37,309 nt of DNA from Alkalimonas sp. (GTDB lineage: Bacteria; Pseudomonadota; Gammaproteobacteria; Enterobacterales; Alteromonadaceae), in contig JAFIFR010000006.1 in assembly GCA_020831935.1 (NCBI GenBank), forward strand, positions 1-37,309, read 5' to 3'. The notes beneath the pieces are model-generated. The model saw only the letters and a list, made by a program, of their open reading frames with translations, was not told the DNA's origin and did no database searches. This document shows, piece by piece, positions 9,028 to 28,040 of the stretch. The translations under genes were made by a program, and so were the position numbers. The first letter of the stretch is position 1, and the number at the start of each line of letters is the position of its first letter.

Positions 9028-9057
9028 TTGACAGACGTCTATAAGTCTGTGCATTAT
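9028..9057 (+). promoter_or_regulatory. Putative thr operon promoter
   Basis: Perfect TTGACA at 9028-9033; weak -10 candidate CATTAT 9052-9057 (18 bp spacer). The -10 assignment is uncertain. Confidence 0.4.
9033..9048 (+). promoter_or_regulatory. Putative MetJ operator: two tandem met boxes
   Basis: AGACGTCT (8/8 to met box consensus) followed directly by ATAAGTCT (6/8), next to the TTGACA element upstream of thrL. Confidence 0.5.
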
Positions 9058-9121
9058 GAAGCCTATGAAAAATTTAATGACACTCACCACCACCATTATT
9101 ACCACCACCCTGTCGGGGTAG
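9056..9121 (+). CDS. thrL: thr operon leader peptide (MKPMKNLMTLTTTIITTTLSG*)
   Basis: Short ORF with 7 Thr and 2 Ile codons just upstream of an attenuator and thrA; start could instead be ATG 9065 or 9077. Confidence 0.87.
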   Translation: MKPMKNLMTLTTTIITTTLSG

Positions 9122-9179
9122 GAGGTCGGTGGTGCTTTGTCATCAGAAAACCCGTGACCTCAACCGTCACGGGTTTTTT
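9122..9179 (+). terminator. thr attenuator (2:3 antiterminator and 3:4 intrinsic terminator)
   Basis: CACCACC of the leader can pair with GGTGGTG (9128-9134); GAGGTC 9122-9127 pairs with GACCTC 9156-9161; terminator CCCGTGAC 9151-9158 / GTCACGGG 9166-9173 followed by T6. Confidence 0.88.
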
Positions 9180-9255
9180 GTTTAAGGGCACTAAGACCCG
9201 GCAAATGCAACCAGGACCAACACAATTTCGATGTTGAATGATTCAGGAGTAAAAC

Positions 9256-11715
9256 ATGCGCGTGCTTAAATTTGGCGGTTCGTCGCTGGCCTCGGTCACA
9301 CGCTTTCAGGGGGTGGCCAGCATCGTCGCTGACCGTGCCCGGGAAGGGGAGCTTTGTCTGGTGTTGTCGGCCCCGCAAGGGGTGACCAATCTGTTGGTGG
9401 AGTTGACGGATCTGGCTTACATGGGAGCGGATTATCAGGAGGTACTGCTCAGCTTGCAGCAGCGCTACCAGCAGTTGCTGGATGAGGCAGCAAGTCATAT
9501 TGGTGCAGAGGCTTTAAGCCCGGTTCGGACCCTGATGCAAGCCCAGCTGGAGCAACTAGCGCAGCGCTTGCAAGGGGTGCAGCTGCTCAGGCACTGCCCC
9601 GATCACATCAAGGCGCAGTTGCTTGGTCTTGGGGAGCAGTTCAGTGTCGGCCTGATGCAAGCCTTGCTGCAGGCCGAGGGCGTTCGGGTGCGGTTATTGC
9701 CGGCCGCACACTGTGTGCGCAGTGAAGGCGACTACCTGAACGCGACGGCCGATATACCCGCTTCCGAGCAAGCCTTGGCCAGTGCCATTGCGGAAGCCCC
9801 GGCCGAGGTTTATCTGTTGGCAGGCTTTGTCTCCAGCAATGCGCAGGGCGAGCTTTGCTTGCTGGGCCGCAATGGTTCGGATTACTCGGCCGCCATAGTC
9901 GCTGCCAGCTTAAAAGCCACTGCCTGTGAAATCTGGACCGATGTGGATGGTGTCTACAGTGCCGATCCCCGTCAGGTCAAACAAACCCAATTGATTGAGC
10001 GGTTATCGTACGATGAAGCGATGGAGCTGTCGTACTTTGGCGCCAAAGTATTGCATCCTAAAACCATCGGCCCGTTGGCACGCTTTAATATTCCTTGCTT
10101 TATTAAAAATACGCTGAATCCCAGCGCAGCCGGTACCTGCATTTCGACTCAGGGCGATGGTGATTCGCTGGTTAAGGGCATCTCCAGTTTGCAGCATTTG
10201 GCATTAATTACCGTTTCCGGTCCTGGTCTGAAAGGGGTGGTTGGCATGGCGAGCCGGGTTTTTGCAACCATGGCCCGTGCCTCCATTTCAGTGAATCTGA
10301 TCACTCAGTCGTCGTCTGAATTCAGCATCAGCTTCTGTGTCCCGCAGCTGCACCTGACTGCCGCAAAAAAAGCGTTGGAAACCGAGTTTGAACTGGAGCT
10401 GCAAAGCAAGCTGCTGCGTCCGCTTGATATTGCACCGGATATGGCCATTGTCAGTCTGGTCGGGGATGGCATGCGGCAGCACCGCGGTGTGGCTGCCAAG
10501 TTTTTTGCTTCCCTGGCTCAGGCTCGGGTGAATGTGGTGGCCATTGCGCAAGACAGCAGCGAGCGTTCCATTTCGGCCGTGGTGGCGCAGTCGGCCTGTC
10601 AGGATGCGGTCAAGGTGTGTCATGAAAACTTCTTTAGTCATATCCCCAGCATCGATGTTTTCCTGGTGGGCTGTGGTGTGGTTGGGGCGGAGCTGTTGGC
10701 ACAAATTGAGCGACAGCAAGGCTTCTTGCAGCAGCGTCACGTGAAATTGAAAGTCTATGGCATCGCCAACAGCCGGCAACTGTTGCTGCAGCCGGAAGGG
10801 GTGGATTTAGCCGCCTGGCAGCCGCAACTGGCGCAAAGCAAACAGGCTTTTAGCCTCGATGCCCTGAACCAGTTTGTGCAGGAGCAGCATTTGATCAATC
10901 CGGTGTTGGTCGATTGCACCAGCTCGGAAAGCATTGCTGCTCAGTACGCCGATTTCCTGGCCGCTGGCTTTCATGTGGTGACCCCAAATAAAAAAGCCAA
11001 CACCGCCAGCATGGCGTATTACCGTGAGCTGCGGCAAAAGGCACAGCAGCATCGACGCCGTTTTTTGTATGAAACCACGGTCGGGGCAGGTTTGCCGGTG
11101 ATTGATACTTTGCAGGGCCTGCTAAACGCGGGCGATGAGCTGCTGGCTTTTGAAGGCATTTTGTCCGGTTCCCTGTCCTACATTTTTGGCATGCTGGAGC
11201 AAGGGCTCAGCTTGTCAGAAGTCACCGCCAAAGCCAAAGCCATGGGCTTTACCGAGCCGGATCCCCGCGATGATTTGTCGGGGATGGATGTAGCGCGCAA
11301 GCTGCTCATCATGGCGCGGGAGTCCGGTCTTGAGCTGGAGCTGGAGCAGGTAGAGGTCGAGTCGGTGTTGCCGGCTGGCTTCGATGCTAGCGGCAGCATT
11401 GACACCTTTATGGCGCGATTGCCTGAAGCCAATGCGGCTTTTGCCAAGCGGGCGGAGGCGGCCAAAGCAGAAGGCAAGGTGCTGCGCTACATCGGTGAGA
11501 TTCGGGACGGGCAGTGCAAGGTCGCCATCAAGGCGTTGGAGCCGGATCATCCGCTGGCAAAAGTGAAAGACGGGGAAAATGCCCTGGCCATTCACAGCCG
11601 TTATTATCAGCCGATCCCTTTTGTGCTGCGTGGTTATGGTGCAGGCGCTGCGGTTACCTCCGCTGGGGTATTCAGTGATATTCTGCGGACCTTGTCCTGG
11701 CAGCAGGAAGTCTAA
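9256..11715 (+). CDS. thrA: Bifunctional aspartokinase I/homoserine dehydrogenase I
   Basis: 819 aa; N-term '[13 protein letters not shown]', '[14 protein letters not shown]', HSD domain '[14 protein letters not shown]', '[16 protein letters not shown]'; followed by thrB and thrC. Confidence 0.97.
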
Positions 11716-11730
11716 GCGGAGCGCATAACA

Positions 11731-12687
11731 ATGACACAGTATTATTATGCGCCGGCTTCAACGGGCAATCTGAGCGTGGGCTTTGACCTCTTGGGTGCGG
11801 CTTTTGAGCCCGTCGATGGGCAACTGCTCGGTGATGTGCTGGCCATTCATGGCGAGGCAGTTCAGAGTCGGCTTCGACTTAGCGGTCGTTACCAGCACCA
11901 GCTGCCGGCCGATACCGACGACAATCTGGTGCTTCGTTGTTACCGCTTATTCCAGCAGCGATTGGGGAAGCCCTTGCCGGGGCTGGAGCTGGAGCTTATC
12001 AAAGCGTTGCCGGTTGGCAGCGGTCTGGGGTCCAGTGCCTGCTCCATTGTGGTGGCCTGCTACGCCTTTAACCATTATTTTGGCGAACCACTGAGCCAGT
12101 CGGAGTTGTTGCAACTGATGGCCGAAGCCGAAGGTGGCGTCAGCGGCTCCGTGCATTACGACAATGTGGCACCCTCTTATCTGGGCGGGCTGCAATTGAT
12201 GTTGCCAGGCAGCCGACAACTTTGCCGCGTCCTGCCTTGGTTTGACCACTGGCGGGTGGTATTGAGTTATCCTGGCACCACCTTGTCGACCAAGGCCGCG
12301 CGTGCCGCTATCCCGGCGCAGTTGCCGCTGGCAACCAGCATCGCTTTTGCTGCCGGTCTGAGCCGCTTTGTTTCAGCCCTTTACAGTCAGGATGAAGCCG
12401 ATGCGATGGCGGCCTTGAACGATGTGGTCGCCGAGCCGGCGCGGCTTCATTTAATGCCTGAGCTGTCGCAGCTGCGAAGCGCACTGCACGCCCTTGGTGC
12501 TGTCCATCTTGGCATTTCCGGGGCTGGCCCAACGGTGTTTGCACTTTGCCCAACCGACTCCGCTGCCCGTGATGTGGCCGCTTATCTGACGCAGCATTAC
12601 CATAAGAATCAGGATGCGATGACGCATCTTTGTCGGCTGGCACCAAAGGGTGCCCGCCTTGTGAAGGATCCAAACTCATGCAATTAG
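11731..12687 (+). CDS. thrB: Homoserine kinase
   Basis: 318 aa GHMP kinase with 'ALPVGSGLGSSACSIVVA'; between thrA and thrC. Confidence 0.97.
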   Translation: MTQYYYAPASTGNLSVGFDLLGAAFEPVDGQLLGDVLAIHGEAVQSRLRLSGRYQHQLPADTDDNLVLRCYRLFQQRLGKPLPGLELELIKALPVGSGLGSSACSIVVACYAFNHYFGEPLSQSELLQLMAEAEGGVSGSVHYDNVAPSYLGGLQLMLPGSRQLCRVLPWFDHWRVVLSYPGTTLSTKAARAAIPAQLPLATSIAFAAGLSRFVSALYSQDEADAMAALNDVVAEPARLHLMPELSQLRSALHALGAVHLGISGAGPTVFALCPTDSAARDVAAYLTQHYHKNQDAMTHLCRLAPKGARLVKDPNSCN

Positions 12688-13964
12688 TCAATTTGAAAGT
12701 ACCTGCCGAGCAGGTCAGTTTTTTACAGGCGGTCCGTACCGGCCTTGGCCAGCAACAAGGCTTATTTTTTCCGACCCAGTGGCCACAACTTGATTGCGAT
12801 GTCTTGCTGCAATTGCCACTGCAAGCGCGCAGCACAGCCATTATGCAGGCCTTATTCGGCGATGAGCTGACCGAACAGCAAATTCAGCAGATGGTGGAGC
12901 AGGCCTTTACCTTTCCGGCTCCGTTGCAACCGGTCACAGATGAGCTCTATTGCCTTGAGCTTTTTCACGGGCCCACGCTGGCTTTTAAAGACTTTGGTGG
13001 CCGTTTTATGGCGCAGGCTCTTGGGCAGGCCAAGCAACAGGATAAAGTTACCATTGTCACCGCCACATCGGGCGATACCGGAGCTGCGGTTGCGCAGGCA
13101 TTTTACCGTCAACCCGGTGTGCAGGTGGTGATTTTGTATCCGAAAGGCAAGATCAGCAGCCTGCAGGAAAAATTGTTTTCCACCCTGGGTGAGAACATTA
13201 CTACTCTGGCCATTGACGGGGACTTTGATCAGTGTCAGGCGCTGGTGAAACAGGTTTTCGATCATCAGGCGCTGGTCAAGCGTCTGAATATCAACTCGGC
13301 CAACTCCATCAACATCAGTCGGCTATTGGCGCAGGTTTGCTACTATTTTGAAGCTTTGGCCCAGTTGCCTGCTGAGCGGCGGCAGGATGCGGTCTTTGCT
13401 GTACCCAGCGGCAACTTTGGCAATGTTACTGCCGGTTTAATTGCCAAGGCGATGGGGTTACCATTCAAGCGGATGGTGGCAGCCACCAATATCAATGATA
13501 CGGTACCGCGTTATTGGCGTGATGGTCAGTGGCAACCTAAGGCCACGCAGGCCACTTTATCCAATGCGATGGACATCAGTGCGCCAAACAACTGGCCGCG
13601 GGTGGAAGCACTGCTGCAACAAGGTGTTATTCAGCGCGCTGATCTCGAAGCCGTGGCGGTAGATGAAGACGATACCCAGTTGGGGATGCGTCAGCTGGCG
13701 GCTGAGGGCTACATCAGTGAGCCGCATGCGGCGGTGGCCTACAAAGCACTCAAACGCTCCTTGCAGCCAGGGGAGATCGGCATCTTTCTTGGCACCGCCC
13801 ATCCGGCCAAGTTTAAAGAGCAGGTCGAGAATATTCTTGGTTGCCCAATCGCCTTGCCACCGGTACTGGCCAAGTGCCAGGCCGAGCCAAGCCTGAGCCG
13901 GGAACTGCCTGCTGATTTCGCAGCTTTGGAGCAACTCTTGCTGGAGCTGGAAGACCATGCCTGA
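12678..13964 (+). CDS. thrC: Threonine synthase
   Basis: Start ATG 12678 ([15 protein letters not shown]...), overlaps thrB end; '[19 protein letters not shown]' PLP site and '[15 protein letters not shown]'. Confidence 0.97.
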
Positions 13965-23773: not shown

Positions 23774-24109
23774 TTAATCTTCAGCGTTTTCGGCTTCGAT
23801 GATTTCCGGGATGGGTTTGCCCATGCTGGTCAGGATATCGCGCACTTCTTGTGGGATCTGATGTGGGCTGTCTTTGCGTAAGTCCTCGTCGCTGGGCAAG
23901 GGCTGGCCGGTAAAGGCATGCAAAAACGCTTCGCACAGCAGTTCGCTGTTGGTGGCATGGCGCAGGTTGTTGACCTGACGGCGGGTGCGTTCATCGGTTA
24001 AAACTTTCAGCACATTCAGCGGAATGGACACCGTAATTTTTTTTACTTGTTCGGATTTTTTACCGTGTTCCGCATAGGGGTGAATGTATTCACCATTCCA
24101 TTTAGCCAT
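23774..24109 (-). CDS. metJ: Methionine repressor MetJ
   Basis: 111 aa; '[72 protein letters not shown]'; divergent from metB. Confidence 0.97.
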
Positions 24110-24265: not shown

Positions 24266-24293
24266 TTGACATCGCCATTTATCTGGTTATACT
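24266..24293 (+). promoter_or_regulatory. Putative metBLF promoter
   Basis: TTGACA (24266-24271), 16 bp spacer, TATACT (24288-24293). Confidence 0.6.
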
Positions 24294-24312
24294 TTTAGAC
24301 GTCTAAACATCT
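24289..24312 (+). promoter_or_regulatory. MetJ operator with 2-3 tandem met boxes upstream of metB
   Basis: ATACTTTT (5/8), AGACGTCT (8/8, 24297-24304), AAACATCT (6/8, 24305-24312), at the -10/start-site region. Confidence 0.85.
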
Positions 24313-25649: not shown

Positions 25650-28040
25650 ATGACAACACAAGCTTTAACGACAGCACACTGGGCGGGTTCGGCTCAGGTG
25701 CATAAATTTGGTGGAACCAGTCTGGCCGATGCCGGACGTTTTCGTGCTGTGGCAGCCATAGTGCAGCAGCACTGTGCGACGCCAGAGCAGTGCTGGCTGG
25801 TGGTTTCTGCCCCCGGTAAAACCACGGACCAACTGTGCCAGTTGCTGGATTTGGCGGCCCGTGGCGAAGCGCTGGAGCCGGTTCTAGCCGAAGTGCAGCA
25901 CAGCCTGACCACGCTAGTGCAGCAAAGCCTGACCGAGCCTGAGCAAAGCGACGTATTGGCTCAGCTGCAACAATGGTTGGTGGTGTTGCCAGAGCTGGCG
26001 CAGGCTGGCCGTGCTGCCGATGTGCTGGCGTTGGGGGAATCGGTATCGGCCTTGTTGCTGAGCCGTTTACTGCGCCAGCTGGGGCTGGCGGCCGATTGGC
26101 TCGACAGTCGGCAGTTTTTGACGGTGGATGGTCAGCAAGTCCGCTGGGATCAATCCGAGCACGACTTACAAGCGCTTTGCCAGCCCGGTATCCGGGTGGT
26201 CACCGGCTTCATTGGTCGGGACCTGGCGGGCAACAGTCTGACGCTGGGGCGCAATGGCAGCGATTACTCCGCCACCATTCTTGGCCGACTGGTGCAGGCA
26301 GAGCAAGTGACCATCTGGACCGACGTTGATGCCATCTACAGTGGCGATCCTCGTCGTCTGCCGGCTGCAGTGCCGTATCAGCAGGTCAGTTGGCGCCAGG
26401 CCTGTTTGCTGGCCGAGCTTGGCAACCCGGTGCTGCATGCCCGCACCTTATCGCCACTGCACAACAGCCAGACCAAATTGCTGGTGCGCTCCAGCTTTGA
26501 ACCGGAGCACTGCGGCTGCCATATTCTGCCGGATGCCGATTGTTTGGCCAGCTTTGTCACCGACTTGCACGACATGGTGCTGCTAAGCATGCATCAATTG
26601 CATGGCTTGAATGCCAGCTGGCTGGCCAATGCTTTGCATCAGCCAGTGATTGCGCTGCCACAAAGCTGCGATGCTCATGTTTGGTTGTTGCCGGCCAAGG
26701 TCGCCGATGAGGCGGTGCAACTGCTGGCCAAGCATCAGGTGCATGCCGTGCATGACACCAGTCGCTATTATGCCGTCGCCTGGTTAAAACCCGCTCAGGT
26801 ACAGCAAGCAGACTTGCCAGCCGATGTAGCGGCTTGTGTGAAGCGGCTGGCCCCGGCGCATCGTTATCAAAACCATGAACTGGCCATCTGGCTGTTCGAC
26901 CAGGAGTTATCTGCAGTGAATCTTGCCCAGTTGCATCAATGCTGTACTCAGCCCCGCCCGGAAGTTCAATTGATCGTCGCCGGCACCGGCAATGTCGGCG
27001 CCGAGTTTTTGCGGTTACTGCCAGGGCATCAGCAGCGTTGTCACAGCCATGCACTGCGCTTGGCGGTGCTGTTTAATTCGCGTCAGATGGTGTTTGCACC
27101 AGACAGCGGTCAAGAGCTGGCGCAGCAAATGCAGCAGGGCAGGCCATTGGATCAGAAGGCCTTGCTGGCCGAAATCGCTCAGCTGAAGGGGCCAAAGGTT
27201 CTAATCGACTTAACCCCAAGCCAACAACTGGCCGAGCAGTACCCGTCTTTTATTGAGGCGGGTTGTCATCTCATCAGTGCCAACAAGCAAGGTGTTACCT
27301 TGCCAGAAGCCGAGTATCAGGCCATTCTGGCCCGTTTGGACCAGCAGCAGCTGCATTGGTACAGCAATACCACGGCTGGCGCCGGTTTGCCGGTGCAACG
27401 TGCTTTGCAGGAGCTTAGCAGCGCTGGCGATCAGGTACGCCGGATCAGTGGCATTTTTTCCGGCACCTTGTCCTGGTTGCTGTGTCAGTACGATGGCAGC
27501 AGTGCCTTTTCCGATCTGCTGCTGCAAGCCAGAGAGCTGGGTTACACCGAGCCGGATCCGCGCGAAGACTTATCTGGCCGTGATGTGCAGCGTAAGTTGC
27601 TGGTGTTGGCGCGTACCATGGGGTGCTCGTTGGAGCTGGATGATATTGCACTGGAGCCTTTGCTGCCTGAATCACTGGCCGGTGACAGTTGGCAGGCATT
27701 CTGGCAACAGCGCGCTGAATTCGATGCGCTGATGCAGGCCGCCTGGCAACAAGCGCAGCAGCAAGGCTTGCAGCTACGCTATGTCGGTGAGCTGTCGCTA
27801 AACAAAGCCGGTGTCCAGGCCAGAGTTCGCTTAGTGCAGGTGCCGGCCAGTGATCCGCTGGCGGCCATTTTACCTTGTGACAATGTATTTGTGATTGAAT
27901 CCGACTGGTACCAGGAGTTGCCTTTGGTGATCAAAGGACCCGGTGCCGGTCGTACCGTAACTGCAGGCGGCGTGCATGCCGATCTGGCACAGCTTTGTCA
28001 GCAGTTGCCCGCTGCTGCCTATTCATCGAGGTTGTCGTAA
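25650..28040 (+). CDS. metL: Bifunctional aspartokinase II/homoserine dehydrogenase II
   Basis: 796 aa; 'VHKFGGTSLADAGRFRAVAAIV', '[13 protein letters not shown]', 'VAGTGNVGAEFLRLL', 'TTAGAGLPVQRAL'; between metB and metF. Confidence 0.96.
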   Translation: MTTQALTTAHWAGSAQVHKFGGTSLADAGRFRAVAAIVQQHCATPEQCWLVVSAPGKTTDQLCQLLDLAARGEALEPVLAEVQHSLTTLVQQSLTEPEQSDVLAQLQQWLVVLPELAQAGRAADVLALGESVSALLLSRLLRQLGLAADWLDSRQFLTVDGQQVRWDQSEHDLQALCQPGIRVVTGFIGRDLAGNSLTLGRNGSDYSATILGRLVQAEQVTIWTDVDAIYSGDPRRLPAAVPYQQVSWRQACLLAELGNPVLHARTLSPLHNSQTKLLVRSSFEPEHCGCHILPDADCLASFVTDLHDMVLLSMHQLHGLNASWLANALHQPVIALPQSCDAHVWLLPAKVADEAVQLLAKHQVHAVHDTSRYYAVAWLKPAQVQQADLPADVAACVKRLAPAHRYQNHELAIWLFDQELSAVNLAQLHQCCTQPRPEVQLIVAGTGNVGAEFLRLLPGHQQRCHSHALRLAVLFNSRQMVFAPDSGQELAQQMQQGRPLDQKALLAEIAQLKGPKVLIDLTPSQQLAEQYPSFIEAGCHLISANKQGVTLPEAEYQAILARLDQQQLHWYSNTTAGAGLPVQRALQELSSAGDQVRRISGIFSGTLSWLLCQYDGSSAFSDLLLQARELGYTEPDPREDLSGRDVQRKLLVLARTMGCSLELDDIALEPLLPESLAGDSWQAFWQQRAEFDALMQAAWQQAQQQGLQLRYVGELSLNKAGVQARVRLVQVPASDPLAAILPCDNVFVIESDWYQELPLVIKGPGAGRTVTAGGVHADLAQLCQQLPAAAYSSRLS

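Follow-up and report, generated by a model that had tools for sequence, protein, structure and literature searches.

The promoter of the threonine operon (thrLABC) in this Alkalimonas sp. contig carries at positions 9033–9048 what is very likely a two-box operator for MetJ-SAM, by which methionine control would be laid on top of the attenuation by threonine and isoleucine. We infer binding, SAM dependence and repression from the sequence. The features concerned are listed below for the window, i.e. the whole stretch of 37,309 nucleotides that was analysed.

9028–9033, + strand: −35 hexamer TTGACA of the thrL promoter (TTGAC is kept across the aligned thr promoters of the family)
9033–9040, + strand: met box 1, AGACGTCT, 8/8 consensus match
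9041–9048, + strand: met box 2, ATAAGTCT, 6/8 match, in phase with box 1
9052–9057, + strand: −10 hexamer CATTAT, at an 18-nt spacer from the −35 hexamer
9065–9121, + strand: thrL leader peptide, MKNLMTLTTTIITTTLSG, with its ATG 37 nt past the first −35 base; predicted leaderless
9072–9182, + strand: threonine attenuator (Rfam RF00506 and fold), with the terminator stem-loop at 9144–9180
9256–11715, + strand: thrA, bifunctional aspartokinase I / homoserine dehydrogenase I (NF006959, 1179.9 bits)
11731–12687, + strand: thrB, homoserine kinase (TIGR00191, 257.7 bits)
12630–13964, + strand: thrC, threonine synthase (TIGR00260, 366.4 bits), open reading frame as listed, with a putative start
23774–24109, − strand: metJ, the proposed repressor (NF003622, 193.5 bits; E. 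coli MetJ structure 1cma, E 5.6e-49)
24289–24312, + strand: metB operator with three in-phase boxes, ATACTTTT AGACGTCT AAACATCT, taken as reference site
25650–28040, + strand: metL, second aspartokinase/homoserine dehydrogenase, downstream of metB (NF007003, 696.7 bits)

A MetJ operator is composed of two or more 8-bp boxes that resemble AGACGTCT and directly follow one another in phase. The thrL promoter matches the sigma-70 consensus in 10 of 12 positions; box 1 begins on the final base of its −35 hexamer, and the tandem boxes cover the −35 end and fill the spacer towards the −10 hexamer. Both the boxes (8/8 + 6/8) and the TTGACA had been described in an earlier note on this DNA, and sequence and positions proved exact. 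The genes metJ, metB, metL and metF are located 14–20 kb from the thr operon in the same window, and the DNA-contacting strand of the window MetJ, KKITVSIP, is identical to that of E. coli MetJ. With tandem boxes, a MetJ encoded in the genome, a position suited to block the promoter, and conservation in relatives, the thr site has the sequence features expected of a MetJ operator.

An independent MetJ matrix was derived from 90 boxes that lie between metJ and metB in the window and in 29 relatives, excluding the thr sequence. Scored in this way, the thr site reaches 20.55 bits and ranks second in the window, after metB with 22.38 bits, while the next unrelated site displays 9.6 bits. The earlier note had regarded the thr and metB boxes as equal in score. 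The pair of 8/8 and 6/8 is indeed real, but metB possesses a third in-phase box (ATACTTTT, 24289–24296) upstream of the other two, and the thr site is slightly weaker. Elsewhere in the window, AGACGTCT is found only as the metB box at 24297. In the window as a whole, tandem 16-mers with up to 3 mismatches were observed 3 times versus 0.02 expected. A lone 8-mer can of course arise by chance, although the expected count of perfect matches in the window is 0.14 on dinucleotide shuffles, and thus lower than the approximately 0.6 given in the earlier note. However, when the 450 bp upstream of thr were shuffled 5000 times with dinucleotide content kept, no shuffle attained the score of the thr site (maximum 17.99 bits), and the same promoter site is conserved in 21 genera; a chance resemblance is ruled out on these grounds, its probability being practically negligible.

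A mismatch scan against the tandem consensus was extended to the genome, which is 81% complete. Matches with up to 2 mismatches are restricted to thr, metB and metA–metH. Allowing 3 mismatches yields 10 places: thr, metB (two overlapping registers), metA–metH (two registers), and, at exactly 3 mismatches, metK, metR, mtnB/methionine aminotransferase, an NhaC-like transporter and one ArsR-type gene. The raw number is similar for the reversed consensus used as control (11 matches versus 10 for the real pattern), hence the specificity rests on the gene location of the matches, and the strong tandem sites other than thr are mostly found at methionine genes. MetJ targets established earlier include the transporter gene metT (Augustus and Spicer, 2011; PMC3228920), to which the NhaC-like transporter found here may correspond. 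The site at the ArsR/SmtB-type regulator gene (L164, near 1501; G000:C104:10202-10217) is a met-box-like ACATGTCTAGACGGCT at the start of the gene; the regulator is BigR-like with a score below the cut-off, and G001 and G005 contain similar 16-mers (ATATGTCTAGACGGCT, AAATGTCTAGACGGCT).

Conservation was assessed in the thr upstream regions of 135 Alteromonadaceae genomes from 49 genera. A thr box of at least 10 bits (nearly all at least 15) is present in 62 of the 135 genomes and 21 of the 49 genera, the remaining genomes scoring below 10; 28 genera comprise no genome with a thr box. Two layouts can be distinguished. Type I, with the pattern TTGACAGACGTCTA.AAgTct and a box overlapping the last −35 base, is displayed, among named genomes, by Alkalimonas, Rheinheimera, Arsukibacterium and Alishewanella. 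In type II (TTGACATATAGACGTCTATACGGCAAATT; Alteromonas, Glaciecola, Lacimicrobium and relatives) the box is placed 4 bp further in from the −35 hexamer. Box 1, AGACGTCT, is invariant in all 13 type I genomes and recurs, in the different register, in 46 of the 49 type II genomes. Box 2 reads A[T/C/A]AAGTC[T/C] in Alkalimonas, the R. baltica group, Arsukibacterium and Alishewanella; it is weaker in the R. soli group (AAAACTTT, 3–4/8) and matches at just 5/8 in two Alkalimonas genomes. The thr promoter layout of the window is repeated in other genomes of its genus, and the window ThrA shares 89% identity with its closest named relative, an Alkalimonas metagenome-assembled genome. In one genus (g6; G118, G146, G168), an extra met-box pair, AGACGTCTAGACGGTT, is located just upstream of the −35 hexamer, shifted by one base from the phase of the spacer box.

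The thr promoters of Pseudoalteromonas, Colwellia, Thalassotalea and Catenovulum have no met box. Within the order but outside the family, about 50 thr promoters contain no comparable site, with one weak match of 12.2 bits (L304, 140 bp before thrA); together with the E. coli promoter, these rule out a general gammaproteobacterial feature. Alignment and matrix scoring of thrL upstream regions, put forward as a check in the earlier note, thus show a box that hardly varies within two clades and is missing from the rest of the family; the proposal of the note withstands this check, in which a lack of conservation would have counted against it.

The spacer might also be kept for promoter strength or for another palindrome-binding regulator, its likeness to met boxes being secondary. 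Inverted repeats are visible in both layouts (CAGAC-N8-GTCTG in type I, the palindrome TATAGACGTCTATA in type II), and in type II the conservation extends past the central box to include the −10 region. However, the letters that the two layouts have in common are exactly AGACGTCT with in-phase partial boxes, placed at two different offsets from the −35 hexamer, and the same letters are borne by metB and metA in the same genome. Furthermore, the spacer is nearly invariant in genomes with a box, whereas the 65 alignable boxless promoters keep the −35 hexamer and, in part, the −10 region, but display an unconserved spacer. We therefore consider this explanation very improbable, and the thr met-box site very probably real.

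Taken as an operator, the site would act at high SAM, when two MetJ dimers may bind side by side over the −35 end and the spacer. Bound MetJ-SAM would compete with RNA polymerase and block it, and transcription of the thr operon would fall; this step is derived from established MetJ biology and from the position of the site. Transcripts that escape MetJ would still face threonine/isoleucine attenuation at thrL. Since MetL is placed behind the metB boxes, both homoserine dehydrogenases, ThrA and MetL, would answer to methionine status. The repression of thrABC by MetJ-SAM that was suggested in the earlier note is supported by the conservation in two clades, by MetJ being encoded in the window (and in all Alteromonadaceae genomes among the sampled relatives), and by the methionine genes that accompany the thr site genome-wide. 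One argument against an operator is that repressing the threonine operon in response to methionine would appear to be costly for cells that have ample methionine but little threonine. Alternatively, MetJ may bind, yet trim expression merely to a small extent at a weak two-box site, with attenuation dominating threonine control. The thr promoter has two boxes where metB has three, at a score that is a little lower, and the box has been lost in G127 and Aestuariibacter AA17. On the other hand, the near-invariance of box 1 across genera and its apparently independent origins suggest selection, and we regard such a minor role as rather unlikely.

The attenuator downstream of the proposed operator is a diverged relative of RF00506. 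It aligns over the full length of the model at 39.1 bits (E 7.6e-6), which is under the gathering score of 55, and it is not called a member. The predicted fold has −51.7 kcal/mol (z −5.95), with a 15-bp terminator stem at 9144–9180 before thrA, and a simple terminator scan reported no terminator at this attenuator. As in E. coli thrLABC (RF00506, Thr_leader), a leader peptide rich in threonine and isoleucine codons, MKNLMTLTTTIITTTLSG, is followed by a terminator hairpin. In E. coli, however, thrL starts 79 nt past the first base of its TTGACT, and the promoter has no met box, unlike that of the window. Here and in most Alteromonadaceae (120 of 135 genomes), the thrL ATG is found 35–37 nt past the first −35 base. 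So short a distance predicts an mRNA without 5′ UTR, and translation of the leader peptide probably starts on a leaderless mRNA whether or not a genus has the box.

Homoserine, the product of ThrA, is the precursor common to threonine and methionine. At a threshold of E ≤ 1e-100, MetL was found in none of the 49 type II genomes, 48 of which possess a single homoserine dehydrogenase domain, that of ThrA. The association of box and MetL absence has a Fisher p of 1.6e-8, a value that overstates independence, since type II is largely one clade; 22 boxless genomes likewise have no MetL. At three loci of the Alteromonas/Glaciecola clade (L347, L348 and L349, in G008, G011 and G030), metJ is directly divergent from metF, and metB–metL is missing between them. 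Without MetL, ThrA must supply the homoserine for methionine in type II genomes, and MetJ control of ThrA makes sense. The type I clade, including the window, retains metL, and the logic of the missing MetL that applies to the Alteromonas clade fails to account for recruitment there. A degenerate aspartokinase domain of MetL was considered as a reason for control of ThrA in type I and found no support, as the motifs KFGG and GRNGSDYSA are intact in the window MetL and in all seven MetL proteins of the type I clade that were checked. In one type I genome (G174:C27:252988-254073), the MetL match spans only residues 427–786 in a 395-amino-acid frame, i.e. the homoserine dehydrogenase half, which suggests a broken or split gene. 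In Vibrio natriegens, deletion of thrA causes methionine sensitivity, possibly via repression of metL (PMC12925634), a phenotype that shows how tightly the ThrA and MetL isoenzymes are linked.

In a tree of ThrA, types I and II are located on separate branches with boxless lineages between them, and four changes are required. An AU test on ThrA rejects a single clade of all box-bearing genera (p 1e-54), based on a quickly searched single-gene tree in which some branches are long. One ancestral site common to all box genera is disfavoured by this test on one gene's tree, and the rejection, along with the differing registers, favours two recruitments. That an identical 8-mer occurs at two distances from the −35 hexamer, differing by 4 bp, on ThrA branches kept apart by the AU test, also argues against a promoter element. 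The simplest history probably comprises two recruitments and at least two losses, in G127 (Rheinheimera group) and in Aestuariibacter AA17, where absence of the box indicates that the site is dispensable. One ancient gain followed by many losses and re-registering is less likely, though conceivable given that only one gene's tree was used. We hypothesize, with somewhat better than even confidence, that the thr operon was recruited twice and independently to the MetJ regulon, in different registers of the same promoter, in the Alteromonas line alongside loss of metL, which left ThrA as the sole homoserine dehydrogenase, and that MetJ repression, threonine/isoleucine attenuation and a leaderless leader mRNA are combined within about 150 bp.

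The link of MetJ with thrABC is a previously predicted one: thrABC is listed among the newly predicted MetJ targets of Alteromonadales (Leyn et al., 2014; PMC4239095), with the same regulator, box and operon as here. The main text of that report presents no thrABC sites or species, and Rheinheimera and Alishewanella are not named in it. What is new is the Alkalimonas/Rheinheimera lineage and the layout; in the literature searched, we found neither a separate type I lineage nor two registers nor a connection with absence of metL. The MetJ operators of metB, metA and metF are tandem 8-bp boxes over the promoter, as at thr here (Augustus and Spicer, 2011; PMC3228920); the regulon table of that study, which covers 206 species, includes no thr genes and reports metL for 26 of 29 Alteromonadales. 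Among publications that treat MetJ together with thrABC, thrA or Alteromonas, we identified none in which binding of MetJ at thrABC, or its effect on expression, was examined experimentally. Boxless sister genera and the existence of two registers provide natural controls for reporter work.

If the proposed operator is true, the threonine/isoleucine branch would respond to methionine status in a large set of marine and alkaliphilic bacteria, in contrast to E. coli. In the Alteromonas line, the regulatory site would have shifted to the enzyme that replaced MetL in its task, which would offer a clean comparative case of regulatory rewiring, with the repressor site at a different gene where the usual regulated isoenzyme is missing.
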